From positions 166,392 through 230,391 of the forward strand of contig JAGBTN010000007.1 of the NCBI GenBank assembly GCA_017631315.1: DNA of 64,000 bases, written 5' to 3'. How positions within the stretch are numbered: position 1 is the stretch's first letter; each line of letters begins with the position of its first letter. Below are positions 3,532 through 59,444 of this stretch, one piece after another. Source of the stretch: Bacteroidaceae bacterium. GTDB lineage: Bacteria; Bacteroidota; Bacteroidia; Bacteroidales; Bacteroidaceae. Both the position numbers and the translations under genes were made by a program. The notes below the pieces were generated by a model. That model had not been told where the DNA came from. It did no database searches and was given only the letters and a program-made list of their open reading frames with translations.

Positions 3532-3619
3532 AATCACTCACAAGTAGTTGAAAAAGTTCTGCAGAGAAGTTCGCCAAGTTCTGCAGAAAAGTTGAAAAGC
3601 CATACGCGTGAACTCGTAA
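3532..3619. repeat. 22-bp repeat array A (about 4 units)
   Basis: Units start at 3532, 3554, 3576 and 3598. The second and third both begin AAGTTCTGCAGA and carry the palindrome CTGCAG at the same offset; the fourth carries ACGCGT. They resemble the last two units of the array at 33265-33374. The array fills most of the gap between the BspA-like gene and the terminator before folD; I see nothing else in 3448-3730. Confidence 0.6.
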
Positions 3620-3730
3620 AAATCCACACCCGCTTTTACAGAACCTCACTATGCGGGCTAAAGCGATACACTATTCGCACATGCCGGTTTGTTATGCTAT
3701 TTTGAGTTTTACCGGACAGCAATACAATAT

Positions 3731-3779
3731 TATACTATTAAGGCGTGCTCCTCCGATTGAAGCACGCCTTAATAGTATA
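3731..3779. terminator. Bidirectional intrinsic terminator
   Basis: A perfect 19-bp inverted repeat (left arm 3731-3749, right arm 3761-3779) with an 11-base loop and a GC-rich inner half (AGGCGTGCT). It sits between the converging BspA-like gene and folD and has A/T-rich ends in both directions, so it can serve both transcripts. Confidence 0.85.
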
Positions 3780-3797
3780 TTCCTTGCTCGATACTGC

Positions 3798-4673
3798 TCA
3801 ATAGTAAAGATGCTTACCTGCTGCAAGGGTGTTGAGCATGAGCATACAAATCGTCATAGGACCTACGCCACCGGGGACAGGAGTTATGTACGAGCATAGT
3901 GGCGCTACGTTGTCGAAGTCGACATCACCCGACAGGCGGAAGCCACTCTTCTTTGTTGCATCGGGCACACGGGTTGTGCCTACATCTATGACAACGACAC
4001 CTTTCTTCACCATGTCTGCCTTTAGGAAACCCGGCTGACCTATGGCTGCTATAATGATGTCTGCCTGAAGACATTCTTCCTTGAGGGTGTTGCTACGACT
4101 ATGGCAAACAGTCACTGTGCTGTCGCCATATTGTTTCTGCATCATTAACTGTGCCATCGGCTTGCCTACAATGTTGCTGCGACCGAGAATGACACACTTC
4201 TTTCCACTTGTCTCGATATTGTAACGGCGAAGCAGTTCAAGTATGCCTTTGGGAGTTGCACTGATATAACAAGGCAAACCGATTGCCATGCGTCCGACAT
4301 TGATGGGATGGAAACCGTCAACATCCTTCTTGTAATCGATGGCTTCTATGACTTTCTGCTCGCTGATGTGTTTGGGCAGAGGAAGTTGTACGATGAAGCC
4401 ATCTACTGATTCATCATTGTTCAATTTGTCGACTTCTGCAAGCAGTTGCTCTTCTGTGATGTCGTCTTCAAAACGAAGCAATGTGCTTTGAAAGCCACAG
4501 GCCTCGCATGCAAGCACTTTGTTGCGCACATAAGTCTCACTGCCGCCGTCGTGGCCGACGAGTATGGCTGCAAGGTGTGGACGCTTGCCTCCTTTAGAAA
4601 CGATGTCCTCTACTTCTGCTTTTATTTCTGCCTTGATGGTGGCAGCAGTCTGTTTTCCGTCTATCAGTTGCAT
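3798..4673 (-). CDS. folD: Bifunctional methylenetetrahydrofolate dehydrogenase / methenyltetrahydrofolate cyclohydrolase
   Basis: FolD interconverts 5,10-methylene-, 5,10-methenyl- and 10-formyl-tetrahydrofolate in the cytosol, with NADP as the usual cofactor. The 291 residues match the normal family length. The catalytic lysine region is YVRNK near residue 50, followed by the conserved QLPLPKHI, the Rossmann segment [13 protein letters not shown] and the C-terminal signature [10 protein letters not shown]. The gene starts 26 bases after the end of ffh on the same strand, so the two are probably co-transcribed. Transcription should end at the terminator at 3731-3779. Confidence 0.97.
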
Positions 4674-4699
4674 AACCGTTTATATTGATATCTGCTGGT

Positions 4700-6040
4700 T
4701 TACATTCCCGGCATACGGCCTTTCATCATGCTGGCCAGTTGCTGCATTTTGCTCTTGTCTGTTACCATCTTCATCATTTTGCGTGTCTGGTCGAACTGTT
4801 TGATGAGACGGTTCACTTCCTGAACATTGGTGCCCGAACCTTTGGCAATACGCATTCTGCGACTTGTATTGAGGCATTCGGGGTGAGTGCGTTCCTTGGG
4901 TGTCATGCTCAAGATAATGGCTTCGATGTTCTTGAAGGCATTGTCGTCGATGTCTATATCTTTGATGGCTTTGCCTACACCTGGTATCATGCCGGCCAGG
5001 TCTTTAAGGTTGCCCATCTTCTTTATTTGTTGTATCTGCTTGTAGAAGTCGTTGAAGTCGAACTGATTCTTCTGTATGCGCTTCTCCAGACGGCGTGCCT
5101 CTTCCTCGTCGTATTGCTCTTGTGCTCTTTCCACGAGCGAAACGATGTCGCCCATGCCGAGGATGCGGTCTGCCATACGGCTGGGATGGAACGGATCGAG
5201 TGCCTCCATCTTCTCGCCTGTACCGACGAACTTGATGGGTTTGTTGACAACGCTACGGATGCTCAATGCTGCACCGCCTCGAGTATCGCCGTCGAGTTTG
5301 GTGAGGACTACGCCCGTGTAGTCGAGACGGTCGTTGAATTCTTTTGCTGTGTTTACGGCATCCTGACCTGTCATTGCATCGACAACGAAGAGTATTTCGT
5401 CGGGCTGTACGGCATCGCGAATGTCTTGTATCTGCTGCATGAGTTCCTCGTCGATGGCCTGACGACCTGCTGTATCGACGATAAGCACGTCGTGTGCTTT
5501 GGCTTTGGCGTGTTGTATGGCATTCAGGGCAACGGCAACGGGGTCTGTTGCGCCTTCTTCCATATAGACGGGTACGCCTACTTGTTCGCCGAGGACACGC
5601 AGTTGTTCCATGGCTGCGGGACGGAAGGTGTCGCAGGCTGCAAGCAGAGGATTCTTGGCACGCTTTTCCTTGAGCAGTTTTGCCAGTTTGCCACTCATGG
5701 TTGTTTTACCTGCACCGTTCAAACCGGCCATAAGGATGATGGCTGGATGGCCTTTGAGGTTCATGTCGGTTGTCTCGCCGCCCATGAGTTCTGCCAGTTC
5801 GTCGTGCACGATTTTTACCATCAGTTGCTGTGGTTTGATGGCGGTCAGTACGTTTTGTCCGAGTGCTTTCTGCTTGACGGTATCGGTAAAGGACTTTGCA
5901 ACCTTGTAGTTTACGTCGGCATCGAGCAGGGCGCGACGTACGTCTTTCAGTGTTTCGGCGACATTGATTTCTGTAATCTTTCCTTCGCCTTTCAGTATCT
6001 TGAACGACCGTTCGAGGCGTTCGCTTAAGTTTTCAAACAT
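4700..6040 (-). CDS. ffh: Signal recognition particle GTPase Ffh
   Basis: Ffh binds signal sequences of nascent membrane proteins and delivers ribosomes to FtsY. The 446 residues show the N domain (about 1-95), the G domain with P-loop GLNGAGKTT, DTFRPAA, DTAGR and TKLDGDTRGG, and the methionine-rich M domain with the SRP-RNA-binding helix SRRMRIAKGSG. The P-loop reads NGAGKTT where many Ffh proteins have QGSGKTT. Length and order of domains are normal. It is the first gene of a probable ffh-folD unit. Confidence 0.98.
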   Translation of the reverse strand: MFENLSERLERSFKILKGEGKITEINVAETLKDVRRALLDADVNYKVAKSFTDTVKQKALGQNVLTAIKPQQLMVKIVHDELAELMGGETTDMNLKGHPAIILMAGLNGAGKTTMSGKLAKLLKEKRAKNPLLAACDTFRPAAMEQLRVLGEQVGVPVYMEEGATDPVAVALNAIQHAKAKAHDVLIVDTAGRQAIDEELMQQIQDIRDAVQPDEILFVVDAMTGQDAVNTAKEFNDRLDYTGVVLTKLDGDTRGGAALSIRSVVNKPIKFVGTGEKMEALDPFHPSRMADRILGMGDIVSLVERAQEQYDEEEARRLEKRIQKNQFDFNDFYKQIQQIKKMGNLKDLAGMIPGVGKAIKDIDIDDNAFKNIEAIILSMTPKERTHPECLNTSRRMRIAKGSGTNVQEVNRLIKQFDQTRKMMKMVTDKSKMQQLASMMKGRMPGM

Positions 6041-6088
6041 TGAAGTAATTTTCTATTTAACGATTTAGTATTTGCAATTTATATGGTT

Positions 6089-6679
6089 TCAGACGTTCAG
6101 GATTTGCTCTGCGAGTGGCATTACCACTTTGCTGAGCACTTTGTCGTTGAGGAAGTGTTCGCCTTCGAAGAGTTGCATACGGTCTTTTCCGTAGTGTTTC
6201 TGGAAATCGCCCTGGCAGTTGACGAGTTTGTCCTGTGTGCCGAAGAGTCCCCAGACCAAGGCTTTTTCGTTGGCATCGATGGCTTTGAAACTGTCCTTCT
6301 CTACCTGTTGGAACGCCTGAATCATTTGTTTGTCGACCTTAAACTCCGTTGCGCCGTCCTGTCGCTTATTGCGGAATTCGCGTCGTCCCAGGCCTCGGAA
6401 GGTGAGAAGGCGTGCCATGTGGAACGAGGGGTTGACCAGTATTCGTGGTATTCCTCTGAGTTGTTCGGCATAGAGGGCGCCCATGCTGGTGGCGACAATG
6501 AGGTCGGGGTGTTCCTCCGCTACGAGTGTTTTGAGGAACCCGATTGCCGTGATTGGCTCCACAGGCACGTCCGGACTGATTACCTGCACGCCTTTCGGAT
6601 AGAGGTGATTGCGCATCTGCGTAGCAGAACCTGTGCTGCCGGCAGAGGCAAAGCCGTGTATGTAGAGTACTTTTTTCAC
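6089..6679 (-). CDS. YqiA/UPF0227-like alpha/beta hydrolase
   Basis: A small serine hydrolase-like protein of 196 residues. The chosen start is the GTG at 6679, which opens on the first beta strand (KKVLYIHGFASAG); only two TTG codons precede it before an in-frame stop. The nucleophile elbow is ATSMGAL, and a C-terminal histidine is in GEHFLN, fitting the Ser-His layout of the YqiA esterase family. It lies 48 bases upstream of ffh and reads in the same direction. The substrate is unknown. A -7 box ends only 4 bases before the GTG, so the message may be leaderless. Confidence 0.8.
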   Translation of the reverse strand: MKKVLYIHGFASAGSTGSATQMRNHLYPKGVQVISPDVPVEPITAIGFLKTLVAEEHPDLIVATSMGALYAEQLRGIPRILVNPSFHMARLLTFRGLGRREFRNKRQDGATEFKVDKQMIQAFQQVEKDSFKAIDANEKALVWGLFGTQDKLVNCQGDFQKHYGKDRMQLFEGEHFLNDKVLSKVVMPLAEQILNV

Positions 6680-6683
6680 GCTG

Positions 6684-6691
6684 CAAAGATA
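6684..6691 (-). promoter_or_regulatory. Bacteroidetes -7 element, hydrolase gene
   Basis: TATCTTTG on the minus strand. No clear -33 TTG at the right distance. Its closeness to the GTG at 6679 implies a leaderless message if used. Confidence 0.45.
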
Positions 6692-6953
6692 CAACAATTA
6701 AATGAAAAGTGGAAAGTGTGAAGTGAAAATTTATGAGGAGAAGGCGTAGAACACCTGGACGAGGCAGTCAATTTGTCAAGTTTTTTCTTGATTTTCACCC
6801 CTTCCGCAGCAAAATTTTGCGTCAAACCCACGAAAGGGTCATCAGCAGGGCATTTTTAGCAATTTCTGTATCTTGCTGAAATACCAGTACTTAAGAGTGT
6901 TCCCAAATAAAGTCAGCACATAGAAATGGACAAAAAGGTATGCTAAATCATAG

Positions 6954-7085
6954 AATTTGACGTGTTTTGTCGCCCGGAAAGGGCAGTCGAATTCCAAAAC
7001 ATGACGTGTGAAGTTTGCCAACTCGACGAGTGGAGTTGCGAATCGCCCAACACCGAATGACCCAACACCCTGTTACAAATCGCAG
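6954..7085. repeat. Degenerate 22-bp repeat array J (up to 6 units)
   Basis: Unit starts fall at 6954, 6976, 6998, 7020, 7042 and 7064. The clearest are 6954 (AATTTGACGTGTTTTG), 6998 (AACATGACGTG) and 7020, which holds the palindrome ACTCGACGAGT. They resemble units of the arrays at 59335 and 11565. The phase is weaker than in other arrays. In the rest of the gap 6692-6953 I see no gene. Confidence 0.4.
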
Positions 7086-7153
7086 ATTTCAGCATGGCAA
7101 ACAAAAAAGTTGTCAGGATTTTTCCTCACACAAGGCTGCAGTTCCCTGCAAAC

Positions 7154-7199
7154 GAAGTGCCCCTGAAAAGCCGAAAAAACGACTCATCAGGGGCACTTC
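7154..7199 (-). terminator. Terminator hairpin after the winged-helix gene
   Basis: A perfect 13-bp stem (arms 7154-7166 and 7187-7199, GAAGTGCCCCTGA and its complement) lies 29 bases past the stop of the minus-strand gene, followed by a short T-rich stretch. Confidence 0.75.
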
Positions 7200-7227
7200 A
7201 AAACAGGCGTATTGCCCGATGTATTGC

Positions 7228-7428
7228 TTACTTCAAAGTAACAGTAACTACCTTGTCAGCCTCAGTTACTTCAACCTTGTCCTCGCGAAGCAACCAGCCA
7301 AGAGCCAGATAAAGATCCTTGTCGGTCTTAACCTTAGCAGCCTTCTTCAGGTCCTTTGTGTTCAGTGCGCCATTCTCGTTAAGGGCTGTCCATACGGCAC
7401 CAGCCAATGTTCCAACTACTGTTGTCAT
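7228..7428 (-). CDS. Small winged-helix protein (DUF2582-like)
   Basis: A 66-residue protein that matches the short Bacteroidetes winged-helix family once named DUF2582: the start MTTVVGTLAGAVWTAL, the motif NTKDLKKAAKV, and LGWLLREDKVEV leading into a final beta hairpin. The fold suggests DNA binding, but no target is known from the sequence. It is monocistronic, with its own promoter and terminator. Confidence 0.8.
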   Translation of the reverse strand: MTTVVGTLAGAVWTALNENGALNTKDLKKAAKVKTDKDLYLALGWLLREDKVEVTEADKVVTVTLK

Positions 7429-7494
7429 AATTTTAATTGATTCTATTGATTATTATTTACTTAATCAGTTCTATTCTTCTCTGATTTTCGCGTG

Positions 7495-7502
7495 CAAAGA
7501 TA
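7495..7502 (-). promoter_or_regulatory. Bacteroidetes -7 element, winged-helix gene
   Basis: TATCTTTG on the minus strand, giving an untranslated leader of about 60 bases. Confidence 0.65.
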
Positions 7503-7609
7503 CAACAATTCGTGTAATCAACACCATATTATAATATATTCTTTTATGCTATGTGGCATATTTTTGACATTTATCAAGAGGGAGATAGCCATTATTTCGA
7601 AAAAAAGTA

Positions 7610-7617
7610 TATCTTTG
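7610..7617 (+). promoter_or_regulatory. Bacteroidetes -7 element, lipoprotein-regulator unit
   Basis: TATCTTTG, about 45 bases before the start of the lipoprotein gene. No clear -33 TTG. Confidence 0.55.
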
Positions 7618-7661
7618 CCACTTCTTAACAGCAAAAAACCACCACAAAAAGGCCGTTTTAT

Positions 7662-8081
7662 ATGCAAATATACCACAAAAAACTGACCGCCTCCGTCGCA
7701 CTCTGCGCACTCATCGTATGCGGAGCCTGCAAGCAAGAAACAAAAGACGAGAAGTTCAAAAAAGACTTCGAACAGTTCACACTGAAAGAATGCCCTAAAG
7801 AAATAGACCTCTTCATACAGCTGGACAGCGCAAATTACGACATAAAAAGCCGAACACTCAACTACCATTACACCCTGGAAGAAGAGCTCGACCACGACAC
7901 CATCTACGACGAAAAGACAAAAGACCTCTTCCACGAAAACATACTGAAGAGCCTGAAAACCAGTATACAACTAAAACCCTACAAGGACGAAGGCATCACG
8001 TTCCGCTACATCTATCGCAGCAACACCACAGGCCAAACACTCCTGGAACTCACATTCACTGCCGAGCAATACAACAACTGA
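7662..8081 (+). CDS. Small putative lipoprotein of unknown function
   Basis: A protein of 139 residues that starts with a charged, then hydrophobic segment ending LIVCGAC, a weak lipobox with the acceptor cysteine at about residue 23. The mature part is charged and has no recognisable domain; EEELDHDTIYDEKTKDLF and the following region look like a mixed alpha/beta fold. The stop is 8 bases before the start of the winged-helix regulator, so the two are very likely one transcript. By context it might sense something at the envelope for that regulator or for the TonB receptor downstream; this is inference. Confidence 0.7.
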   Translation: MQIYHKKLTASVALCALIVCGACKQETKDEKFKKDFEQFTLKECPKEIDLFIQLDSANYDIKSRTLNYHYTLEEELDHDTIYDEKTKDLFHENILKSLKTSIQLKPYKDEGITFRYIYRSNTTGQTLLELTFTAEQYNN

Positions 8082-8089
8082 GCGCCTCC

Positions 8090-8803: not shown

Positions 8804-8815
8804 GGCAATCTTAAG
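8796..8815 (+). promoter_or_regulatory. Predicted OmpR-type operator (11-bp-period direct repeat)
   Basis: AATCTTAAG occurs at 8796-8804 and again at 8807-8815, a direct repeat with an 11-bp period, the geometry bound by PhoB/OmpR-type winged helices. The first copy overlaps the stop codon of the regulator gene. The second lies where a -33 box would sit for the -7 element at 8837. The second copy also forms the palindrome AATCTTAAGATT (8807-8818), so a dimeric palindrome binder is an alternative. Confidence 0.6.
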
Positions 8816-8836
8816 ATTAAAACAAGAAACTTGTCG

Positions 8837-8844
8837 TACCTTTG
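8837..8844 (+). promoter_or_regulatory. Bacteroidetes -7 element, TonB receptor gene
   Basis: TACCTTTG, 26 bases before the receptor start. No -33 TTG; the direct repeat occupies that place, which suits an activator-dependent promoter. Confidence 0.7.
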
Positions 8845-8870
8845 CAGGCAAAACCAATTAAAGACACATT

Positions 8871-11237: not shown

Positions 11238-11253
11238 ACAAGCACTCTCCTAC

Positions 11254-11281
11254 GCCCTCCCTCTACGGGAGGGCTTCTTTT
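11254..11281 (+). terminator. Intrinsic terminator after the TonB receptor
   Basis: GCCCTCCC (11254-11261) and GGGAGGGC (11267-11274) form an 8-bp GC-rich stem with a 5-base loop, followed by TTCTTTTTT. Confidence 0.9.
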
Positions 11282-11542
11282 TTCCTTAATGACAAAATGT
11301 AAGCAATGTGCCGTTTTTGCTTACACACCCCATTTTTGTCGTCGCTCCAGAATCGCTTAAAATCCTCTCGACCTTAGTTTTCCCCACCCGAAAGGTGAAA
11401 CGCGCTCAGAACGAAGGCTTTTTATAATGGCATGGTTACCAGCGTGTTGCAAAAAGATGTTTGGGGCTTTCAGTTTGACTCCTACGGCATAATCTGCCTA
11501 TTGGGCATGTCGAAACGGTAGTTTTAACCCGTTTTTGCACAC

Positions 11543-11652
11543 TTTTTCACTTGTGAAAGTAACAGAAAAGGCATGGGTAATTTCCGAATTTAACGTGCCA
11601 AGTCGAGCAACAAGGCATGGGATGTCTGCCAACACCCCACACCTTTTCTGCC
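11543..11652. repeat. 22-bp repeat array I (5 units)
   Basis: Units start at 11543, 11565, 11587, 11609 and 11631. The first holds TTTCACTTGTGAAA; the second begins GAAAAGGCATGGG; the third holds TTAACGTGCC, also found in a unit of the array at 59335; the fourth and fifth end in CTGCC. The rest of 11282-11775 is non-coding, with nothing else recognised. Confidence 0.55.
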
Positions 11653-11775
11653 GTAAAGCCATTTTCGGTCACATTTTAAGCCACTTTCAGAAGTGTGCAA
11701 AAATTGACATAATGATGTTAATTGCCGAAATTTGCTGACAATTTATCAAAATGTATCCAGCAGAAAAGGCAAGTA

Positions 11776-12723: not shown

Positions 12724-12802
12724 TTTATCCCTTTTATTTCTGTTTTACTGTTATCTGCCACAAAATTAACCAATAATTCCGCATAATTCAATTTATTTTT
12801 TC

Positions 12803-12810
12803 TAATTTTG
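12803..12810 (+). promoter_or_regulatory. Bacteroidetes -7 element, small membrane protein and lipoprotein
   Basis: TAATTTTG, 31 bases before the ATG at 12842. No clear -33 element. Confidence 0.5.
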
Positions 12811-12841
12811 CGAAAAAGAACCCCTTTCTTTTCAATATCGT

Positions 12842-15188: not shown

Positions 15189-15353
15189 ATGAAGAAACAA
15201 TATCTGGGCCTCGCCCTCATCGTGCTTGGCGCACTCATGCTTATCCTTAGCTATGTATGCAGTCTGGAAGACTACAACTTCTACAACATTGGTGCATTGC
15301 TTGTCATCATCGGTGGCATTGTTGCACACATCGTTTTGACTAAACGGTCATAG
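15189..15353 (+). CDS. Small two-helix membrane protein (54 residues)
   Basis: An ATG at 15189 opens a 54-codon frame ending at the TAG at 15351-15353. Two hydrophobic helices (LGLALIVLGALMLILSYV and IGALLVIIGGIVAHIVL) are separated by a short acidic turn (SLEDYNFYN), so both ends should face the cytosol. It has its own -7 box. The barrel protein gene follows after 29 bases. Function unknown; the helical pair and the promoter make it a convincing gene. Confidence 0.75.
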   Translation: MKKQYLGLALIVLGALMLILSYVCSLEDYNFYNIGALLVIIGGIVAHIVLTKRS

Positions 15354-15382
15354 CCCATTCCTTACCAACTTTTATTCAACAG

Positions 15383-18716: not shown

Positions 18717-18804
18717 AAATAGGTTAACCTTTCTTGCCAAATAGGTTAACCATTCCGGCCATATATGTTAAGCATTATTGCCAAACACGTTAACCATTAT
18801 TTTC
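18717..18804. repeat. 22-bp repeat array B (4 units) between pyrK and pyrD
   Basis: Four units start at 18717, 18739, 18761 and 18783 with an exact 22-bp period. Units 1 and 2 share AAATAGGTTAACC; all contain GTTAA at the same offset, and the first three end in GCC. A 21-base stretch (18731-18751) occurs unchanged at 45521-45541. The array lies in the 166-base gap inside the pyrK-pyrD transcript. Confidence 0.9.
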
Positions 18805-23667: not shown

Positions 23668-23755
23668 AGAAAGGTTCACCATTATTCGAATAATGATGAA
23701 CCTTTCCGTTCAATTAGGTTAAGGGTTTTGGCCAACAAGGCACGCCTTGTCCGAC
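23668..23755. repeat. 22-bp repeat array C (4 units)
   Basis: Units start at 23668, 23690, 23712 and 23734. The first two together form a near-perfect 36-base palindrome (23670-23705, AAAGGTTCACC... to ...GATGAACCTTT). The third holds AGGTTAAGGGTTTTGGC, the fourth AAGGCACGCCTTG; the same pair in the same order occurs at 52799-52842. The array lies between converging genes. Confidence 0.8.
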
Positions 23756-33020: not shown

Positions 33021-33229
33021 CAAAGAAAAATGGGAATAGAAAATGAAAACGAAAAATTCTTCCTATTTACATTGATAAAATTTAACCTGCTCCTGAACTG
33101 TAAAATGAAATCAAGTAAAAAACAACATTAAGAATATCTAACTGCTGTAAAGTAATTATAGTATTAAGTATTTAATCACTCAACCGAGTATAGGAATAAG
33201 ACTAAACCCTGTAAACCGCTTGTCGGAAT

Positions 33230-33262
33230 AAGTCTCTAAACTGACAACCTAAATCAGGAAAG
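33230..33262. repeat. Conserved flank of array D
   Basis: The 30 bases from about 33232 (TCTCTAAACTG... to ...AATCAGGAAAG) are found as an exact reverse complement at about 47460-47489, beside array F. A further shared piece, TGTAAAGTAATTATAG, is near 33153 and, reversed, near 47500-47515. Confidence 0.85.
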
Positions 33263-33264
33263 TA

Positions 33265-33374
33265 CAGACGCTGCAGTCCACTTGGCAAAATGGACGCGTC
33301 CTTCGAGACAACTTCACATGTGAAGTTGGGAAACTTCTCTGCAGTAAATGGCAAACTTCTCTGCAGAAGTTTTG
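33265..33374. repeat. 22-bp repeat array D (5 units)
   Basis: Units start at 33265, 33287, 33309, 33331 and 33353, exact period 22. Cores: CTGCAG, GGACGCGTCC, AACTTCACATGTGAAGTT, CTCTGCAG, CTCTGCAGAAG. Every core holds a palindrome but the sequence differs. The first three correspond in order to the reversed units of array F. The gap 33021-33229 holds no gene. Confidence 0.9.
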
Positions 33375-33489
33375 GCTGTGGTGTTTTGTATTCATTCTGA
33401 GTCTGTTGGGAAATCCTGTTTTCCCAGCTGTTATTCTCTCTGCCTTGATGCTTTCCGGCTGGACAAAAACTGATTATTTTGCGCCACCG

Positions 33490-40981: not shown

Positions 40982-41012
40982 TTGGATTGTATACCTTTTT
41001 TTAGTAACTTTG
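40982..41012 (+). promoter_or_regulatory. Promoter of the cytochrome/oxidoreductase cluster
   Basis: TTG (40982-40984), 20 bases, TAACTTTG (41005-41012), 42 bases before the first ORF. Confidence 0.75.
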
Positions 41013-41054
41013 TAGGAGTTTTTTATATTCACACGAGAAAATATAAAACTTCAC

Positions 41055-41471
41055 ATGAGAAAACAGGCAATTACTGCTGTCATGTTGGGCTACTTCACTG
41101 CATGCCTTGGACAAGGCCCCTGGAAGCTCAATCTGCATTGCCAGGAGGAAAACATCAACTTAAAACTTGACCTCTACGAGGAAACCATCAGTGTGCCGGG
41201 ACTGGAAGATTTCGGCCCGATGAACGGATTCCTCGGCGGCAACATTTATGGTGTGTGGTATGTGGCTGGATTCGATATTAAAAACGAACGCTCTGCAAAC
41301 ATTACCATTGCCAACGACCTTGGCAGCGAAGACCAGAAATTGACACTGACGCAAACCTCCGACAGCACCTATATGCTGAAGTTCCTTGGACATAACTTCG
41401 TAAAACGCGTCCAAGGAAAGAAACTCGTGAAGATTCCATCGGAAATGGAAATGAGAGTAAAGCCTCTCTGA
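41055..41471 (+). CDS. Putative lipoprotein at the head of the cytochrome cluster
   Basis: A 138-residue protein with a short signal ending LGYFTAC, a possible lipobox. The rest is predicted beta-rich (INLKLDLYEETISVPGL, GNIYGVWYVAGFDI, KLTLTQTSDSTYMLKFLG) and looks like a small lipocalin-like or sandwich fold. I do not recognise the family. It begins after a clear promoter and 52 bases before the cytochrome/SUMF1 gene, so it likely belongs to that unit and works at the envelope. Confidence 0.7.
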   Translation: MRKQAITAVMLGYFTACLGQGPWKLNLHCQEENINLKLDLYEETISVPGLEDFGPMNGFLGGNIYGVWYVAGFDIKNERSANITIANDLGSEDQKLTLTQTSDSTYMLKFLGHNFVKRVQGKKLVKIPSEMEMRVKPL

Positions 41472-45462: not shown

Positions 45463-45550
45463 ATAAGGGTTAACCATTATAATGAAAAAGGTCAACCATT
45501 ATAAGCAGAAAGCCTAACCATTCTTGCCAAATAGGTTAACCCATTTGAGA
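45463..45550. repeat. 22-bp repeat array E (4 units)
   Basis: Units start at 45463, 45485, 45507 and 45529. The motif AACCATT recurs in the first three and GGTTAACC in the first and fourth. The junction 45521-45541 is identical to 18731-18751 in array B. Confidence 0.88.
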
Positions 45551-47247: not shown

Positions 47248-47371
47248 AACTTTTCTACTTTTTTTTTCTTCTTTTATTATTTTTTGAAAATGGCAAGAAA
47301 CCGATTTCGTTTCGAATAGTATTTTCCTCCTTTATTTTCAAGCCTTAGCGACGGTTGCTGCGGAGTTTTTT

Positions 47372-47459
47372 GCATTGCATTTGTCATGCGGGGAAATTTC
47401 ACGCGTGAACTTGGCTGAATGGACGCGTCCGTTTGAGCAAGTGGACGTGTCTGTTGTGC
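47372..47459. repeat. 22-bp repeat array F (4 units)
   Basis: Units start at 47372, 47394, 47416 and 47438. Cores: TTCACGCGTGAA in the second, GGACGCGTCC in the third, GTGGACGTGTCT in the fourth. Reversed, the order matches the first three units of array D. The rest of 47248-47543 holds the shared flank and no gene. Confidence 0.85.
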
Positions 47460-47489
47460 TTTCCTGATTTAGGTTGTCAGTTTAGAGAG
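47460..47489. repeat. Conserved flank of array F
   Basis: Exact reverse complement of the flank of array D at about 33232-33261. It touches the end of the last 22-bp unit. Confidence 0.85.
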
Positions 47490-47543
47490 TTATTCCTATA
47501 ATTACTTTACAAATCGTTGTTTTGCTGCAAGGCACGGAGGAGT

Positions 47544-52586: not shown

Positions 52587-52710
52587 AGTGGGTGTATGTG
52601 TAAGTTTTGTTATTATTTTGCTGCAAATATCATACTATTCTCCGTAATTTGCAAGCATTTCCGGATAAAATAGGCCGGTGCTTGCGTACGAGAGTTCCCC
52701 CTCGTTTGTG

Positions 52711-52842
52711 CAGGAGGTATGCCACGTCTGCAAACATGGCAGTAGATGTCGGGCAGAATGGTTAACCTTTCGGGCAATAATGCTTAACCATTATTTGGAT
52801 AATGGTTAAGGGTTTTTGGCAGACAGGCACGCCTTGTTCCGA
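52711..52842. repeat. 22-bp repeat array G (6 units)
   Basis: Units start at 52711, 52733, 52755, 52777, 52799 and 52821. Units 4-5 hold the inverted repeat AACCATTAT/ATAATGGTT. Units 5 and 6 match, in order, the last two units of array C (GGTTAAGGG and GGCACGCCTTGT). It fills the gap between the esterase and macroglobulin genes. Confidence 0.85.
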
Positions 52843-52870
52843 CGACAGCCTCGTGGAGGTCTCCACTCCC

Positions 52871-55800
52871 CTACTTCACCTCGATTCTTTCACCTGCGGT
52901 CTGCGACTGGAACTCGGGTGCATAGAGACTGGAAAGACGAGCCGACGGCAGGAGATATGTGCCGTTTCCGTTCATGAGCCATTCTTCTTCTATGACGTAT
53001 GTGCCTTGCGGCAATCGGTCTATGAAGTACTCGGTGCTGGCATCGTGCATGGCCTGGTAATAGCCGAGGCCGTTCTGCCAACGGTATCCCGACAACTGCT
53101 GCGCCGGTTCTGCCACTGCCGGACGGGGTGCTCGCAGGCTGACGTACTCATAGTCGCGGTCGGTTGTAATGGTATAACGTACACGAACACGGTCGCCCGC
53201 ACGAAGTTCGTCCCTCCCACCGACCTCGCGACGGACGGTCATCCCCTCACGATGGCTTTCCGCTTCCGCTGCCGGCAACTGATATTGGGCATAGACGGCT
53301 CCCCAGGAAAGAAGTCCCTCTTCCTCTCCCTTCAAGGGAGATGTGCTTTGCTGAACAATATAGAGTTCCTTTGCATCCGTTACTGGTTCCACCACCTCGC
53401 GGACATAGTCGACCGAAGACTCGGGCAGTTGCAGGCTGCGAACCTGTTTGTCGTAAGCGACCCGACCTTCCCATCGGCCCTCCGAACTGCTGAAAGGACT
53501 TTGCATCAATGCATATACAGCGTCTGCCGACTGCACCGGGTGCTCCCATGCCAGCGTCCTCTTCTGCCGGATGAGCCACTCTGTCATGCCGGCAAGCAAC
53601 GCCGTCTCCTTCGGTTCAACTGTGCGGACAGCCTCCATCAGATTGACGTGTGTCTCCACCTTACGGTCGATGCTCACAAAATTGCCACCCGGATAGGCCA
53701 GATACAGACCGTCCTGATGACGAAGCAACTCATGGATGCGAGGCATCAGAGCCTGAGCCTTCTTCGACTCACCCACACTCTGCAACACGATTGCCGCCAG
53801 CGCACGCGGTTCTCTGTCCAGGTTGTCCGCCTGTCGCCTCAAGAGCGAAACCATATAACGGGCATCGTCATCCAAGGTCTTCCTATACATTATATATATA
53901 TATAGGTAGCGAAGTTCAGCAAGAGACAACACGGGATTCTTCGCCTTGCGCAACTGCTCCACCTCCTTGTGCATTTCCTTCTCGAGGAAAGCCATCGCGC
54001 CATCGAGTATCTCGGCTTCCAAAGTCGACAATTCTCCTTTTATCTTGCCAAGCCTTGCCAACAGCGTTGCAACCTCCAACGTCATACCCAGACTGCCCTT
54101 CATGCCAGGGAACCAGCCGAAAGAGCCGTCCTCGTGCTGACGAACGGAAAGGGCCGAAAGCAACACAATGCGGTGGCGCTCCTGCTCCACCTCGACGAAA
54201 AGCGACGACAGACGCTGCCAGCTTGTCTTCTGGCGCTGAGCATCAAGCATCCAAGGCGTCTCGTCGAGAAGAATATCCGCCAGTTGCTGATTCCTCATAA
54301 GCGGGCTCTCCCACTCCATTTCCTTACCCTTAGCACCCTGCTCCTCAACATAAGTGCGAACCTCTGGATAGGTGTGTGCAATGTGATAGGCAAGGGCTCC
54401 GCCATAATAGGCAGAGGCAACAGAGAGAACATCGCTGCGGGTCGGAGCGGTCAGGGATGGCAATGTCTGCAAGGCAAGACTGAGAGGTTCGGTAATATGC
54501 TCAACCGTCAAAGTCTTATTGGCAGCCTTCGGGTTACCATTTGCAAAGAGTGCAGACAAGTCCACCGACAGCGTTGTATCCCCTTCGAGCACATAAGTCT
54601 TCGTCTCTGTAACGCTTTGCATATCGGAAAGGACAGGCAAATAACGCATCTCACCATCGCTAGCGTCCTTACCCATTGCCTTCCATCGAACGGCAAGCAA
54701 CGGATGGGCGGTGCTCGCATCGAACGTCATGCTATAAACAGCCTCTTTGCCCGGCTCAAGTTCAAACCTCACCTTCATCGTCTTTATACGCTTGTCGTTC
54801 GAAACATCAACGACTTCCAATATGGCTTCGCCCTTCTGGCGTTTCTCCGAAGCATTGCGAATGGAAGCCGTCAGCGTAGCCTCATCACCGTTTCGCAAGA
54901 AGCGAGGCAACGACAACTCTGCCATCAGTTCTTTCTTCGCCACAACAGTCTCCTGCCATTCTGCAGTCATCATATCCTTCGTGTGCGCCAAACCATGCAA
55001 ATGCCACGAAGTGAGTCCTTCGGGCAAGGTAAACTCAATGGATGTCTGCCCCTTGCTGTCAGTGCGAAGTTGCGGATAGAAGAAAGCCATTTCCGAAAGG
55101 TCGGAACGGAGTCCGGCTGCAGTAGGAGTTTCAGACAAAGCATCATCCTCCACCACTCCGCTGTTCGCACTCTCCTCCTCAACCTGCCCTGCACTCCTAT
55201 CAAAAAGAGTAGCCCCTGTTGCAACCATTGTCTTTGCCATCGGTGCAGCGAACGAATTCATAGCAACGCCCTCGGTTCTTGCACCACGCAAACGCATGGT
55301 TTTGCCTCCTCTCGACATAATTGCACTTCGGAAGAACTCATCGCTCCACCCTCCAAAGTCATAAGCATCATAAGGAAGGAAACGCAACGGCAGGTTCACC
55401 TCCCAATAAAGTTTGCGAGCAAACAACTCGAAAGCATTGACCCGAGGCAACACATTGCGCCTGCAAGTACGGTCAACCAACAAATTCATGTCATACGGAG
55501 AAAGCACATCGAGCGAGGCATCGTACATTCCAAGCATAACATTTGCCAAAGCAGGACTGCCGTCAGGATGCCTCAAGGTAAGCCGCCATTGCTCTTTTTG
55601 TCCGGGTTGCGAATAGTTACGGAAGGTGTCCCAATGCATTCGAAGCCGTGTATCCGGTTGCTCCAGTTTGAAGTCTATTGTCTCTTGCCTGAAGTTTCCC
55701 TCATACATCAGCATCAATGTCACAGACAAATGATGGCGGAATCGTTCTTCGTAAGGCACTTCAACAAGCATTGCACTATTGGAAAGATGCAACACAGTAT

Positions 55801-58800
55801 CACGAACAACACCACATTCGCCTGTCATAATACAATAAATCCAAGCATCCGACAAGGTCGTGCCTACTTGGAAACGTGCAGGTTTCTCATGGGATATGGT
55901 ATCACAAGGCGTGTAGAGCCACAAATCGTGATTGCCCTGGAGTTGCGTGTCGGTAATGGAAAAGATCGTGAACTCTGCTTTGTATGATGCCGTATCGTCT
56001 TTGATTTCTGCTTTTGCGTAGAGGTCGTATTTGCCAGAGGGCAGGGTTCGAAGTGATTCTGGAATGGTATCTTTTCCCGAAGGAACGCAGAAACGCTCAA
56101 CCTCCTTGCCGTTTTTTGACAAGATACAAAGTACATTACCCTCAACGGCCTTGTCGTTGCTTGCAAAAAGATTGAAGCGCCATGGTTTGAGCGACTCTCG
56201 ATTCTCCTGTTCAGGCACATTCCCTTGCATCCTTAAGGGCGTGCTGCAAAGCGTCAGACGAGTGCTTCCCTGCTGCGTTTCGCCTTCGAGACTGAACACA
56301 TCCACATTGAGAGACAGTGTCTGCCCCCATTGTAATTGTTCTTTTGTCAATGCCTTTGAAACTGGAACAGTGATGCTGAAACGACCTTCTTCGTCAGTAA
56401 AAAGGGTATCTATCTTATGTAATTCTCTTGGAGCGACTCGCCTATACCACCAACTTTGCTGCCATTGATAAGTTCCGGTTACGCGGGCATTGCCTACCGG
56501 CCACTGGCTATATGTCATGGCTCTACCTGTAAGAGTGATGCTGTCGACGGGCAAAGTGATGGCAGGAGCCTCGTCCATCTCCACCAAGAATGTTGGACGG
56601 CGGTACTCTTCGACGAGGAATTCATGATAATGATTATTGATGCGAATGCCATAACGACCAGGCAAACCCGATTCGGGCAGTTGGAGGCTGTCCTTCAGGG
56701 TGCCGAATGAGTCGGTTTTCAATGTATGTTCTGCAATTTTCTGATTGTTGGCATCGATGAATATGAGCTTACATTCTGCTCCTGCTTCTACTCGTGGTGG
56801 GCGGTCGTGACTTTGGGTATGGGCAATGACGCCTACATAAACCATCTGTCCAGGACGATAGATGCTGCGATCTGTGTATAGATTAAAATGGAGAGTGGCG
56901 TTGTTTTCTATTCTTTGAGTATTGCGCCAACCTAAAGATTCCTTCTTGTGGGCTGTATCTTTGGCTCGCGACAGTTCTACATATACTGTTTCATTCTGTC
57001 CGACACGGAGTTCGGCAATTCCTCTGCTGTCCGTAGTTCTTTCCGCGATTAGTATGTAATCCTGCTTGTCTTTTCTGTAGAAGGCGGCCTTTACTCCCTG
57101 CTGAGGTTTGCCGGACATTGCGTCTGTAACCATTATGCGCTCTTTCCCGTCGGGCATAGCAACAGACATAAATGTAAGAGCCGACACACGTGTCAGGATT
57201 GTTTTGGGTTCGTATTTGTCTGTTTTCTCCTTTGTAGTGCCAGTCAAGACAAGTGCATATTGTCCGAAATCTGGTGTGTGCCAACGCAATGTGTCGTGCT
57301 TTGTTTCGAGAGGAGACGCGTTGTCAATGTTGATTGGTAAGGTTTCAATGAGTGTACCTTTGTGCTGTACCTGCTCGAATCTTGTTCCAGATGTTTCTTC
57401 GTTACCGAACTCGAAGTCATTCGGCATGCGGTAGACAGCGATGCTGCCTGTTTGCATATTCTTAATTTGGAGGGGGATGTCGTAATCTCTCTTGGGATAA
57501 TACATCTCGAGGAACCTTCCGGCAAGCAGCGGACGATGCAGTGAGATGAGCCGATTGCGCAACTCGTTTGCCTGACGGCTCTGGGGATAACGCCTCAAGG
57601 CGTCTTGCAACAGTTCCTGCTGCTCTTGGTCTGTTTTGTCTGGCAAAGATGCAAGTTGCAGATAGACTTGTGCGCAGGCAGGCAAGTCGGCATATTCGTT
57701 GCGCAGGCTTTGTAAGGCTTCTTCCTGTTTTTCGCTGTAGTTTTCCAGTATGGAATCGAGCCGAAGCAGCAATGTTGCTTCGCGAAGGTTGTGTCTGCGG
57801 TAGACTTCGATGATGTCGCCCACATTGGGGACGAGGTGTTTTTCCCTTAGTTGAAGGGGAATATCCTGTTTGGCGCTCTGCCAGATGATGTATAGAAGGT
57901 CGTCGTTGAATATGGCATTGTCTTTGCCTTGCTGTACCAATGGCTTTGCATCTGTCAGTTTGCAGCGATGGAGGGCTTCGGTGTTCTGCAATGCTTGTGC
58001 ATAGAGGTTGGCTGCATGGGACAGATATTCCTGCCGGCTCCACTCTTGTATGCTGTCGGGATGGCTGGTGGTCTGGCTGTCGTAGCGTTGCGAACGCCAT
58101 TGGTTTTGGCATAGCAGTCGAGCCATTGCTGCACGATAGATTGCCTGTGCCGTAGGGTCTTTCTCCTGCAACATTTCGCCTTTGAGTTGTCGCCAGTCGT
58201 GGAAGAAACTGTCGGGCGTAATGTCTTCTCGTTTCTGATTGTCTTTCAAGACGGCGGCCAAGCGCAGGGTTGCTTTCCGACAGGCTTTGCTGCGGTCTTT
58301 GTCGCTCTGCATGATGCCTTGCCAAACGGCTCTTTGCAGGTCGCCCTGCTGATTGTCGTCTGAATACTCCCAGTACATTGCTCCGCGCAATCCTTGCCGG
58401 TGTATGTATGCACACTTCTCGGCTATGGAGCGCGGAGAGTCAAAGCCCATTGTCAGTTTGCCGTTCCTGTCGGCCAGGTAGGATGCTTTTGCCACAGCAT
58501 CCCATCGTTCGATGTCTGTCTGCGCGAAACGGTCCTTGTAGTCCATGTACTTCCCTTTTTCTCCTCTGCCGTAGAAGGGCATGCCGAGAACCATTTTGCC
58601 ATAGGGGACTCCTGCCTTGCGATGTGCCTCGACGACTTCGGAGGCACAGAGCCAACCGACGTTTGGCGAGCGGTAGAGTGCCGAGTGGTGTTTGGGCGCG
58701 TTGCCCATGTCGTAGGCCATCACGTTGACCACATCGAGATACTGCACACAGGTGCGGAAGTCGATGAACTGTGCGCTGCCCACGCTTGCCAAAGTGAGCC

Positions 58801-59293
58801 AGAGTTTCTTTCCCAGAGCCTGCCTGAGGTCGCGCATCAGGAGGGTGAAGTTTTCGGTGTCTTTGGGCGACGAACTGATGCCGGCACTGTTCTGCGTGGG
58901 GTATTCCCAGTCGATGTCGATGCCGTCGATGCCCAGTTCATCGCACAGGCGACGGCAATCTCTGGCAAAGGCCTTTCGGTTTGCCTCGTCGGCAGCCATC
59001 TCGCTGAAACGGCCACTGCCCCACCCGCCTATGCTCAGCATGATGCGGAGGTTGCTGTTTTTTTTCTTTAGGGAGACAATGTCGCGCAGACGCTTTTCGT
59101 TGTCGATGCGCACACCATTGAACTGCTCGTTGACATGGCCGAAAGCATAGTTGATGTGCGTCATCACCGTCGGGTCGGGCATTGTCCGCGTCCACGACGT
59201 GACGTAAGCCACCACTACCGGCTCCGACCCTTTGCCTGCAAAAACAACAAGAGTGCAGACAAGGGCAACGAGAAAAGCAAAAAAGTGTTTCAT
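52871..59293 (-). CDS. GH18 chitinase-like domain fused to an alpha-2-macroglobulin protein
   Basis: A 2140-residue secreted protein. The start at 59293 opens on the signal peptide MKHFFAFLVALVCTLVVFAG; upstream open frame runs through repeat array H and is not used. Residues about 25-330 are a GH18 domain with IMLSIGGWGSG, the catalytic DGIDIDWEYP and MYWEYSDDNQQG. The rest is a bacterial alpha-2-macroglobulin: macroglobulin beta domains (DRSIYRPGQMVYVG, LPGRYGIRINN), FTLPEGLTSWHLHG and an alpha/alpha-toroid region. No CxEQ thioester is seen. Such proteins are thought to guard the periplasm; a chitinase-like head is unusual. Confidence 0.88.
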   Translation of the reverse strand: MKHFFAFLVALVCTLVVFAGKGSEPVVVAYVTSWTRTMPDPTVMTHINYAFGHVNEQFNGVRIDNEKRLRDIVSLKKKNSNLRIMLSIGGWGSGRFSEMAADEANRKAFARDCRRLCDELGIDGIDIDWEYPTQNSAGISSSPKDTENFTLLMRDLRQALGKKLWLTLASVGSAQFIDFRTCVQYLDVVNVMAYDMGNAPKHHSALYRSPNVGWLCASEVVEAHRKAGVPYGKMVLGMPFYGRGEKGKYMDYKDRFAQTDIERWDAVAKASYLADRNGKLTMGFDSPRSIAEKCAYIHRQGLRGAMYWEYSDDNQQGDLQRAVWQGIMQSDKDRSKACRKATLRLAAVLKDNQKREDITPDSFFHDWRQLKGEMLQEKDPTAQAIYRAAMARLLCQNQWRSQRYDSQTTSHPDSIQEWSRQEYLSHAANLYAQALQNTEALHRCKLTDAKPLVQQGKDNAIFNDDLLYIIWQSAKQDIPLQLREKHLVPNVGDIIEVYRRHNLREATLLLRLDSILENYSEKQEEALQSLRNEYADLPACAQVYLQLASLPDKTDQEQQELLQDALRRYPQSRQANELRNRLISLHRPLLAGRFLEMYYPKRDYDIPLQIKNMQTGSIAVYRMPNDFEFGNEETSGTRFEQVQHKGTLIETLPINIDNASPLETKHDTLRWHTPDFGQYALVLTGTTKEKTDKYEPKTILTRVSALTFMSVAMPDGKERIMVTDAMSGKPQQGVKAAFYRKDKQDYILIAERTTDSRGIAELRVGQNETVYVELSRAKDTAHKKESLGWRNTQRIENNATLHFNLYTDRSIYRPGQMVYVGVIAHTQSHDRPPRVEAGAECKLIFIDANNQKIAEHTLKTDSFGTLKDSLQLPESGLPGRYGIRINNHYHEFLVEEYRRPTFLVEMDEAPAITLPVDSITLTGRAMTYSQWPVGNARVTGTYQWQQSWWYRRVAPRELHKIDTLFTDEEGRFSITVPVSKALTKEQLQWGQTLSLNVDVFSLEGETQQGSTRLTLCSTPLRMQGNVPEQENRESLKPWRFNLFASNDKAVEGNVLCILSKNGKEVERFCVPSGKDTIPESLRTLPSGKYDLYAKAEIKDDTASYKAEFTIFSITDTQLQGNHDLWLYTPCDTISHEKPARFQVGTTLSDAWIYCIMTGECGVVRDTVLHLSNSAMLVEVPYEERFRHHLSVTLMLMYEGNFRQETIDFKLEQPDTRLRMHWDTFRNYSQPGQKEQWRLTLRHPDGSPALANVMLGMYDASLDVLSPYDMNLLVDRTCRRNVLPRVNAFELFARKLYWEVNLPLRFLPYDAYDFGGWSDEFFRSAIMSRGGKTMRLRGARTEGVAMNSFAAPMAKTMVATGATLFDRSAGQVEEESANSGVVEDDALSETPTAAGLRSDLSEMAFFYPQLRTDSKGQTSIEFTLPEGLTSWHLHGLAHTKDMMTAEWQETVVAKKELMAELSLPRFLRNGDEATLTASIRNASEKRQKGEAILEVVDVSNDKRIKTMKVRFELEPGKEAVYSMTFDASTAHPLLAVRWKAMGKDASDGEMRYLPVLSDMQSVTETKTYVLEGDTTLSVDLSALFANGNPKAANKTLTVEHITEPLSLALQTLPSLTAPTRSDVLSVASAYYGGALAYHIAHTYPEVRTYVEEQGAKGKEMEWESPLMRNQQLADILLDETPWMLDAQRQKTSWQRLSSLFVEVEQERHRIVLLSALSVRQHEDGSFGWFPGMKGSLGMTLEVATLLARLGKIKGELSTLEAEILDGAMAFLEKEMHKEVEQLRKAKNPVLSLAELRYLYIYIMYRKTLDDDARYMVSLLRRQADNLDREPRALAAIVLQSVGESKKAQALMPRIHELLRHQDGLYLAYPGGNFVSIDRKVETHVNLMEAVRTVEPKETALLAGMTEWLIRQKRTLAWEHPVQSADAVYALMQSPFSSSEGRWEGRVAYDKQVRSLQLPESSVDYVREVVEPVTDAKELYIVQQSTSPLKGEEEGLLSWGAVYAQYQLPAAEAESHREGMTVRREVGGRDELRAGDRVRVRYTITTDRDYEYVSLRAPRPAVAEPAQQLSGYRWQNGLGYYQAMHDASTEYFIDRLPQGTYVIEEEWLMNGNGTYLLPSARLSSLYAPEFQSQTAGERIEVK

Positions 59294-59334
59294 ATATTTG
59301 TGCTTAAAAATCAACACCTTCAGCCTCGCTGGGA

Positions 59335-59444
59335 AACATGGCATAGGTTGTTGGAAAACATGGCGTGCCTTGTTGGCAAAATAGGTTAACCTTTCCGGCC
59401 AACTTAACGTGCCTTGTTGGGCAGAAAGGCACGCCATGTTTTCG
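59335..59444. repeat. 22-bp repeat array H (5 units)
   Basis: Units start at 59335, 59357, 59379, 59401 and 59423. The first two begin AACATGGC; the third holds AAATAGGTTAACC as in array B; the fourth holds TTAACGTGCC; the fifth AAGGCACGCC. It lies between pepD and the macroglobulin gene. Confidence 0.88.

Follow-up and report, generated by a model that had tools for sequence, protein, structure and literature searches.

Arrays of 22-bp units in the window

The window, by which we mean the whole 64,000-nucleotide stretch of Bacteroidaceae DNA that was analysed, contains a series of arrays of tandem 22-bp units (Table 1). All ten coordinates listed in the initial annotation hold such arrays, scoring 51–111 bits with a six-type 22-bp profile (trained on stretches chosen for pattern hits) that recovers all ten; the array at 41003 was absent from that list. 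The units are tandem as described, and, the array edges being degenerate, the profile counts from 3 to 10 per array where three to six had been given.

Table 1. Positions of the 22-bp arrays and associated flanks in the window.
Feature	Position	Strand	Score or remark
22-bp array, 9 profile units (clear 3528–3593), CTGCAG-type core	3506–3703	-	78 bits
22-bp array, 7 units, degenerate	6928–7081	-	54 bits
22-bp array, 9 units, degenerate, convergent intergenic region	11473–11670	-	67 bits
Possible weak array, 4 units	15272–15359	-	24 bits, near threshold
22-bp array, 4 units, GGTTAACC core	18717–18804	+	97 bits
22-bp array, 4 units, GGTTAACC-like then GGCACGCC, convergent	23668–23755	+	67 bits
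Flank, inverted counterpart of 47461–47496	33225–33265	+	33225–33327 matches 47496–47395, 79%
22-bp array, 5 units, type B composite: CTGCAG, GGACGCGTCC, TTCACATGTGAA, CTCTGCAG x2	33266–33375	+	76 bits; unit order recurs at other loci
22-bp array, 5 units	41003–41112	+	43 bits (profile)
22-bp array, 4 units, GGTTAACC core, convergent, terminator-like hairpin just beyond	45463–45550	+	79 bits
22-bp array, 5 units (TTCACGCGTGAA, GGACGCGTCC)	47351–47460	+	51 bits
Flank, inverted counterpart of 33225–33265	47461–47496	-	sequence match
22-bp array, 8 units, GGTTAACC + GGCACGCC cores	52707–52882	-	111 bits
22-bp array, 6 units, GGCGTGCC/GGTTAACC cores, 7 bp from M20 peptidase frame 3′ end	59313–59444	+	98 bits

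Lag 22 stands out when the genome is compared with itself. In 464 kb of stretches chosen for pattern hits there are 73 self-similarity clusters at lag 22, against 0–1 at lags 16, 17, 19, 20, 23, 25 and 26, and 4–6 at lags 18, 21 and 24. A second set of 264 kb, composed of the window (itself given for its arrays) and ten stretches chosen independently of pattern hits, has 26 clusters at lag 22 and 0–4 at the remaining lags from 16 to 29; without the window, the ten stretches (200 kb) contain 26 arrays of at least 40 bits (37 in total less the window's 11). Pairs of GGTTAACC with at most one mismatch occur 128 times at a spacing of 22 in 664 kb, and not once at 21, 23 or 24. The profile finds no array of at least 20 bits in 464 kb of reversed sequence. 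Degenerate units with one A/T-rich end might point to chance, low complexity or composition, and two lag-22 clusters among ten further genomes of the genus (L266 and L270) are indeed of low complexity; in this genome, however, the lag, reversed-sequence, reversed-pattern and spacing controls are all near zero and rule out a chance origin, an explanation to which we attach negligible weight.

Unit geometry and symmetry

A central palindrome is present as initially described, although the unit is better read as an 18 bp palindrome followed by a 4 bp linker than as an A-rich start, a palindromic core and a tail. The palindromes do change from unit to unit: among 37 window units, pairs 3–16, 4–15, 7–12, 8–11 and 9–10 are complementary in 26, 24, 25, 28 and 19 units, where column composition predicts 14.5, 14.9, 13.4, 15.7 and 11.5. 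Pairs 2–17, 5–14 and 6–13 have a small excess, and pair 1–18 none (25 versus 24.9 expected). The palindrome axes were fitted for maximal pairing, which inflates such pair counts, and a column-permutation null allows for the fitting; by this measure 60 of 66 arrays of this genome are more palindromic than permuted versions of themselves (p≤0.05), as are 32 of 49 arrays of related species; in G065 alone the figure is 7 of 18. Among 150 units of related species, each of the nine symmetric pairs, the innermost adjacent bases included, is complementary in 53–72% of cases (26–30% expected), and complementarity drops to 40% at pair 10 and 27% at pair 11. In this genome, pairing does not exceed expectation at the fifth and eighth pairs counted from the axis. 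MAFFT alignment of three-unit windows slips by whole units.

Genomic placement and spread

The arrays are intergenic, as had been noted, and their distribution follows the orientation of the flanking genes (called with our own hexamer script). The 264 kb set has 87 spacers that are 100 bp or longer, and 35 of them carry an array; convergent spacers are richest (13 of 17), tandem spacers intermediate (19 of 52) and divergent spacers poorest (3 of 18). Units in tandem contexts are oriented with the genes in 23 arrays and against them in 20 (n=43). The same 22-bp geometry, with other palindromes, recurs through much of the genus, as well as in some of the other Bacteroidales. Matches in g77 genomes are accompanied by high controls in places (G148, G330). 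On the sequences compared, the spacing stays constant across genera and the letters do not.

Composite elements

Some arrays are copies of composite elements whose unit order is fixed at many loci, of which types A and B are clear. Type A has a 144-bp body with 82–90% identity between one query and 12 aligned copies (13 of 64 BLAST matches). Such elements account for part of the differences between units. Purely local tandem amplification as the sole origin is rejected, since distant arrays share unit order. Inspection of type A ends by eye revealed no target duplication, and no empty site was resolved among the spanned arrays and orthologous spacers compared.

Constraint between sister species

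Divergence between sister species is 0.04–0.09 in the central eight letters and 0.14–0.18 in the linkers, with palindrome positions 4, 5 and 18 diverging at linker-like rates; whole arrays diverge at 0.102, other spacer at 0.118 and coding sequence at 0.060. A covariation check on 30 orthologous arrays (170 units) gave 6 pair-keeping double changes, against 0–5 in six slid controls; strong compensatory evolution is not seen in this comparison. The suggestion that palindromy and phase are kept while sequence drifts is borne out in that both are real and outlast the sequence; the excess of compensatory change that would accompany it does not appear between sister species. Over the short term, constraint acts on letters rather than on pairing alone.

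Arrays near some HU-HIG genes

Four of the five clear HU-HIG genes of this genome (L379–L383) have an array within 420 bp on their 5′ side, compared with 27 of 191 called genes (binomial 0.0018); for L380, L382 and L383 the gene start is approximate, and the count omits three weak PF18291 matches (L384, L385 and L386). The exception is L381, with no clear array 5′ of the gene. When all seven above-cut-off matches are counted, four have a 5′ array (about 0.01). The four arrays are of four palindrome types: CTGCAG, ACACGT, GGTTAACC and ACATGT. Among the weak matches, L384 has a GGTTAACC array on its 3′ side, and L385 has an array at a distance of more than 1 kb.

A further gene in the sister genome G023, L191, has a CTCGTGTGA-like array on its 5′ side, bringing the count to five of six (0.0003). 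Had L191 and L379 been orthologues, the difference between their arrays would have been a case of co-divergence; orthology was rejected because only the coding region aligns, and L191 is treated as a paralogue. The sole other clear HU-HIG gene of the genus with a 420 bp flank, L119, has a GACGCGCGTC array, in a genus background of 26 of 678 genes with an array. No array is present at L200 (171 bp flank), L375 or L130 (a weak HU match).

Multicopy HU-HIG genes of genus g53 also have a 22-bp array in front of them, although the seven genes were found by similarity to an array region and so provide no test of association. At six of 15 HU-HIG loci of gut Parabacteroides, Bacteroides and Phocaeicola a lag-22 array ends 0.4–0.6 kb before the gene (including Parabacteroides distasonis, Phocaeicola massiliensis and Bacteroides finegoldii), against four lag-22 clusters in 150 kb elsewhere; the other nine loci have no array. 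Three of the six arrays are palindromic at p≤0.05, and the loci represent one homologous cassette. L387, with an A/T-rich repeat at lag 26 and a palindrome p of 0.19, was left out of the array count.

All four neighbouring proteins match PF18291 above cut-off, and two of them (L379 and L389) also match TIGR01201, for which L119 and L191 fall below. The median number of PF18291 matches per genome is 7 across 67 genomes of the genus and 2 across 43 genomes drawn from as many other families, seven of which have at least six (up to 21 in G102); these are not pure HU-HIG counts, since ordinary HU is matched as well (in 9 of 14 control genomes). Three single-protein scans found no viral carriage of close HU-HIG relatives. 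An expansion of HU-HIG was reportedly described by Burroughs and colleagues in 2017. Classical HU binds DNA with little sequence preference, and we found no DNA sites described for the HU-HIG family in published literature (subscription journals being mostly outside coverage).

Possible roles of the arrays

The arrays may be phased dyad sites for a symmetric protein, probably HU-HIG paralogues, and so constitute a candidate binding system; this is the reading to which we lean, without quite crediting it with an even chance. One 18-bp dyad site would be presented every 22 bp, and a symmetric (dimeric) DNA-binding protein would occupy neighbouring sites in register. That a dimeric protein binds the arrays, as the initial annotation had suggested, is plausible. 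HU-HIG paralogues (PF18291; HU_rel), members of a histone-like family with many copies in the genus, are the likely proteins; each would recognise its own palindrome type, which would also be the type of the array upstream of the paralogue's gene, and would further bind dispersed, REP-like copies in the spacers between genes, with possible roles in self-regulation and in organising or insulating the chromosome.

Two other explanations need to be set against this. The arrays could be RNA elements, strings of hairpins at mRNA 3′ ends with a role in termination, pausing or transcript protection. The preference for convergent spacers would suit such a role, and adjacent units can pair to form an 18-bp stem with a 4-nt loop; moreover, several type A copies have, by eye, a terminator-like hairpin and T-tract at the gene-distal end (the hairpin being perfect in L338–L340 and degenerate or absent in other copies), and the neighbouring gene points at the type A element in 11 of the 12 copies with a called gene there. 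Predicted terminators are divided: with each strand of a spacer taken as a separate case, 31 convergent cases have both an array and a predicted terminator, which forms within the array in 13 and precedes it in 15, and 47 of 78 convergent array cases have none predicted. Tandem spacers show no strand preference, and in the 43 tandem-context arrays sense-strand G–U mismatches (189) are fewer than A–C mismatches (260). Rfam returned no match at gathering score in the window, L171, L082 or L209. The conservation of core letters, the pairing of even the innermost adjacent bases, and the lack of an excess of either compensatory changes or G–U mismatches together speak for a DNA site bound by a symmetric protein rather than an RNA hairpin, and we regard the latter as improbable.

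The more serious rival is that the arrays are selfish or neutral repeats of the REP/MITE kind without an HU-HIG partner, copied by a mobilising enzyme and surviving in spacers, convergent ones especially, since selection would remove insertions elsewhere, their proximity to HU-HIG genes being incidental. We hold this to be quite possible, if a little less so than protein binding. Composite copies with fixed unit order, the enrichment in convergent spacers, the inverted common flank at 33225/47496, and the lack of the array from several orthologous spacers of other species are all in keeping with it. Yet no match to a Y1 (RAYT-type, PF01797) transposase is present in the array-rich genomes G000, G023 and G019 (87, 72 and 62% complete), on which grounds a RAYT-driven REP was rejected, and all 30 spannable arrays are common to the sister species, with no insertion or target duplication demonstrated. 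The better conservation of core letters than of spacer and the 5′ arrays of four of five HU-HIG genes also weigh against this rival, and one mobile element would not be expected to keep the same 22-bp geometry from genus to genus while its palindromes are unrelated.

Protein binding at phased dyad sites can be extended to a diversifying protein–DNA code, in which HU-HIG paralogues of the Bacteroidales, each with a private 18-bp palindrome every 22 bp, would regulate themselves through the upstream array and mark the chromosome by way of many dispersed intergenic arrays, the geometry being set by protein packing and the specificities turning over between species. We think this fuller version rather unlikely; were it true, it would represent a histone-like system with paralogue-specific addresses. 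Binding of the arrays by HU-HIG would in itself provide an expanded and little understood gut-bacterial family with DNA sites, and bacterial histone-like proteins with sequence-specific addresses; since arrays adjoin HU-HIG genes in named species, this can already be put to the test. Even without the HU-HIG link, it is unusual for a repeat to hold its spacing from genus to genus as its letters change.

Comparison with known repeats

No named family had been recognised for these units, and in the published work surveyed on Prevotella/Bacteroides repeats and on HU-HIG (subscription journals mostly outside coverage) we likewise found no description of this repeat. REP/BIME sequences with their RAYT enzymes are short dispersed intergenic palindromes, often at gene 3′ ends, whose sequence varies between species. 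The arrays too are dispersed intergenic palindromes, but they are arranged head-to-tail at an exact 22-bp period, and the array-rich genomes, all incomplete, lack the transposase match. Plasmid iterons and operator arrays are phased sites about two helical turns apart to which one protein binds; the arrays are similarly phased, but number more than 100 in a quarter of the genome and have many unrelated palindromes. Unlike CRISPR arrays, they have no spacers, the units being separated by a 4-bp linker only.

The occurrence of a single composite sequence as separate copies at many loci (types A and B) is MITE-like. The BrickBuilt MITE of Porphyromonas gingivalis has a 23-nt direct repeat, a leader and tail, inverted-repeat ends and 19 copies in ATCC 33277, and is likewise intergenic and tandem, with no spacers between its units, in a Bacteroidales genome (PMC4596501). 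Its period is 23 nt rather than 22 (lag 23 has no clusters in 464 kb here), and palindromes go unmentioned in the BrickBuilt text (PMC4596501). PINSR of Prevotella intermedia is also an intergenic, dispersed, lineage-specific repeat, but is described as a 188-bp repeat with one consensus and 177–184 copies per genome, and the term '22-bp' is absent from its text (PMC4755523). The family to which some arrays are tied by position is HU-HIG (TIGR01201, HU_rel), whose genes lie beside these arrays here and in other Bacteroidales.

Arrays of 22-bp dyad units

All ten of the intergenic 22-bp arrays claimed for the window in the initial annotation are real, as judged by sequence inspection and a profile scan, and scanning with a profile of six unit types brings the total there to 12. 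Symmetry is greatest when each unit is taken as an imperfect palindrome of 18 bp with 4 bp after it, and the period is exactly 22 bp. Among 107 arrays scoring at least 40 bits against this profile in 664 kb of the window's genome (G000), there are between 3 and 10 units per array, most commonly five, and just two lie mostly within called genes.

Arrays and other features of the window and its genome
Feature	Location	Basis or remarks
Array overlooked in the initial annotation	41003-41112	profile of six unit types
Weak array	15272-15359	profile of six unit types
CTGCAG array	5′ of HU-HIG gene L379	window's genome
ACACGT array	5′ of HU-HIG gene L380	window's genome
GGTTAACC array	5′ of HU-HIG gene L382	window's genome
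ACATGT array	5′ of HU-HIG gene L383	window's genome
Single long frame with GH18 glycosidase and alpha-2-macroglobulin domains	52871-59620 (-)	true start probably near 59285, within this frame (by eye)
69-bp (23-codon) repeats	1519-1704 and 2201-2358	within frame 1141-3447

The arrays exceed what chance would give. Within 464 kb of the window's genome there are 73 self-similar clusters at a lag of 22 bp, compared with 4–6 at lags 18, 21 and 24, and none or one at 16, 17, 19, 20, 23, 25 and 26. Pairs of GGTTAACC occur at spacing 22 in 128 cases and never at 21, 23 or 24, and a 20-base unit pattern (up to three mismatches) matches 642 places in the genome versus 32 for its reverse. A 264-kb set, comprising the window and ten stretches chosen without regard to arrays, contains 37 arrays of at least 40 bits (11 of them in the window); its reversed sequence contains none.

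Best-axis symmetry exceeds that of column-permuted arrays (p≤0.05) in 60 of 66 arrays of the window's genome and 32 of 49 from other species, and the axis lies between two bases in 65 of the former 66 and 40 of the latter 49. In 150 units from other species all nine pairs, including the innermost, are complementary in 53–72%; in the window's genome the fifth and eighth pairs from the axis lack such complementarity.

Conservation and composite copies

Of 81 arrays compared with stretches of the sister species (G023), 36 were matched and 30 were spanned together with their flanks, the array aligning in place in all 30. Divergence is 0.102 in arrays, 0.118 in other spacer and 0.060 in coding sequence; by position it is 0.04–0.09 in the central eight and 0.14–0.18 in the linkers, with palindrome positions 4, 5 and 18 at 0.14–0.17. 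Double changes that keep a pair number six, versus 0–5 in slid controls. The letters of an array are thus conserved in the short term, and types differ in the long term. The earlier proposal that palindromy and phase are kept while sequence drifts is partly supported: both outlast the sequence, but drift compensated within pairs is not supported between the sister species.

Unit order is also informative: among 5356 array pairs, the arrays' own order aligns better than shuffled units in 57.9% and worse in 34.0%. Some arrays belong to composites. Type A, aligned from the query and 12 copies, has a body 144 bp long, made up of six and a half units that each carry a palindrome of their own; several copies end distally in a terminator-like hairpin and T-tract (perfect in loci L338-L340, by eye), and the neighboring gene is directed toward the element in 11 of the 12 copies having a called gene there. 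The window array at 33266 belongs to a type B composite.

Genomic position and terminators

Among spacers of at least 100 bp in the 264-kb set, oriented by gene calls from a simple hexamer script, those between convergent genes hold an array in 13 of 17 cases, those between tandem genes in 19 of 52 and those between divergent genes in 3 of 18 (Fisher 0.0006 for convergent versus divergent and 0.005 for convergent versus tandem). Two adjacent palindromic units can form a hairpin in which the stem is 18 bp long and the linker is the loop, and some arrays lead into T-tracts. With each spacer strand counted separately, 78 convergent cases have an array; a terminator is predicted in 31 of these, lying inside the array in 13, before it in 15 and after it in 3. 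Terminator formation is a side property of some arrays rather than a general rule.

Distribution across genomes

The GGTTAACC pattern (up to two mismatches) is found at 313 places in the window's genome, 310 in its sister and 14 in G019, and at no more than four per genome in 70 other examined genomes of the genus. Loci of other species have 22-bp arrays with unrelated palindromes, such as GCTTGTACATGTATAAGC, GTTTCTCTGTAGGGAAAC and GAAAGACGCGCGTCTTTC. A set of 80 loci yields 35 clusters at lag 22, 11 at lag 16, 7 at lag 23 and 1–3 at 17, 19, 20, 25 and 26. In 20 stretches drawn from as many genomes of the genus there are 19 at lag 22, four to eight at 15, 16, 23, 24 and 30, and 0–3 at most other lags; at a looser threshold 13 of these genomes have a lag-22 cluster. 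Among ten further genomes of the genus, six show a cluster, two of the six being low-complexity. In 180 kb of another genome, G065, there are 20 clusters at lag 22, with many different cores, and none at 19, 20, 23, 25 or 26; palindromy exceeds that of column-permuted arrays (p≤0.05) in 7 of the 18 arrays listed for it.

When 86 arrays of the genus are compared free of rotation and strand, their consensus reaches 4.16 bits, versus 2.73–2.90 in six permuted sets, and reads AACGTGTT, with TTGGCAA further on. Its core recurs at spacing 22 between 113 and 354 times in G051, G053 and G008; in three other genera (g53, g60 and g77) individual genomes have from a few up to some dozens of occurrences. 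At least one match is present in 59 of the 399 genomes. Arrays of the 18+4 form occur in short stretches from G209 and G305 (g53) and G451 (g60). Twenty stretches (about 276 kb in total) that sample 20 further families of the order give one lag-22 cluster, and random 50-kb stretches give two in Parabacteroides distasonis and one each in Bacteroides finegoldii and Phocaeicola massiliensis, three of these four being palindromic at p≤0.02.

Individual loci show further arrangements. A single run at L219 (4819-5069) has three unrelated palindrome types in blocks with a 22-bp period throughout, and two G209 loci (L296 and L297) share a similar heterogeneous five-unit block, adjoined in L297 by an unrelated second 22-bp array. 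By eye, a spacer array of ~10-bp units with CCTAGG palindromes lies downstream of an M20 peptidase gene in another species (L115, from 7437), and CCCCCTTTAGGGGG-type palindromic repeats follow the same gene in relatives (L104 7450-7600, L081, L083 and L114).

Association with HU-HIG genes

In g53, copies of a gene for HU-HIG, a histone-like family (PF18291; TIGR01201 HU_rel), lie downstream of a dispersed region that contains a 22-bp array. This finding prompted a test in the window's genome. There are eight PF18291 matches there, seven above cut-off. Four of the five clear HU-HIG genes have an array, of four different types, within 420 bp 5′ (L381 has none), giving 0.0018 against a background of 27 of 191 called genes; counting all seven matches above cut-off, the figure is four of seven. 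A further paralogue in the sister species (L191) has a CTCGTGTGA-like array, and its inclusion gives five of six (0.0003). Another species has a GACGCGCGTC array at its HU-HIG locus L119, and no array was found at L200 (171 bp of flank examined), L375 or L130.

In named gut species, 6 of 15 HU-HIG loci have an array ending 0.4–0.6 kb before the gene; these six represent one conserved cassette, and three pass the palindrome test. By eye, the cassette arrays of P. massiliensis and B. finegoldii (L392) each look like the array present elsewhere in the same record. At gut Bacteroidales loci L389, L390, L391 (without annotation), L392, L393 and L395, the HU-HIG gene is often accompanied, within one cassette, by a primase- or helicase-like gene, a small DUF4248 gene (DUF6722 in L393) and an amidase or similar, with the 22-bp array in or near the spacer ahead of the DUF4248/DUF6722 gene. 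The PF18291 model, which also matches ordinary HU, has a median count of 7 per genome in the genus (67 genomes) and 2 in other families (43), among which seven exceptions have at least 6. These statistics suggest HU-HIG proteins as candidate binders of the arrays; in the more novel reading they would form a code, each paralogue recognizing its own palindrome type.

Comparison with known repeats

These dispersed dyad arrays of fixed geometry form a family. A cognate transposase (RAYT), a feature of REP/BIME repeats, was sought in the incomplete genomes G000, G023 and G019 and was not found there. As for MITE hallmarks, no target duplication was seen at the ends of type A copies (by eye). Related literature includes PMC4596501 (the BrickBuilt MITE of Porphyromonas gingivalis), PMC4755523 (the PINSR repeat of Prevotella intermedia) and PMC5771137. 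Among known kinds of repeat, REP/BIME and MITE elements come closest to the arrays.
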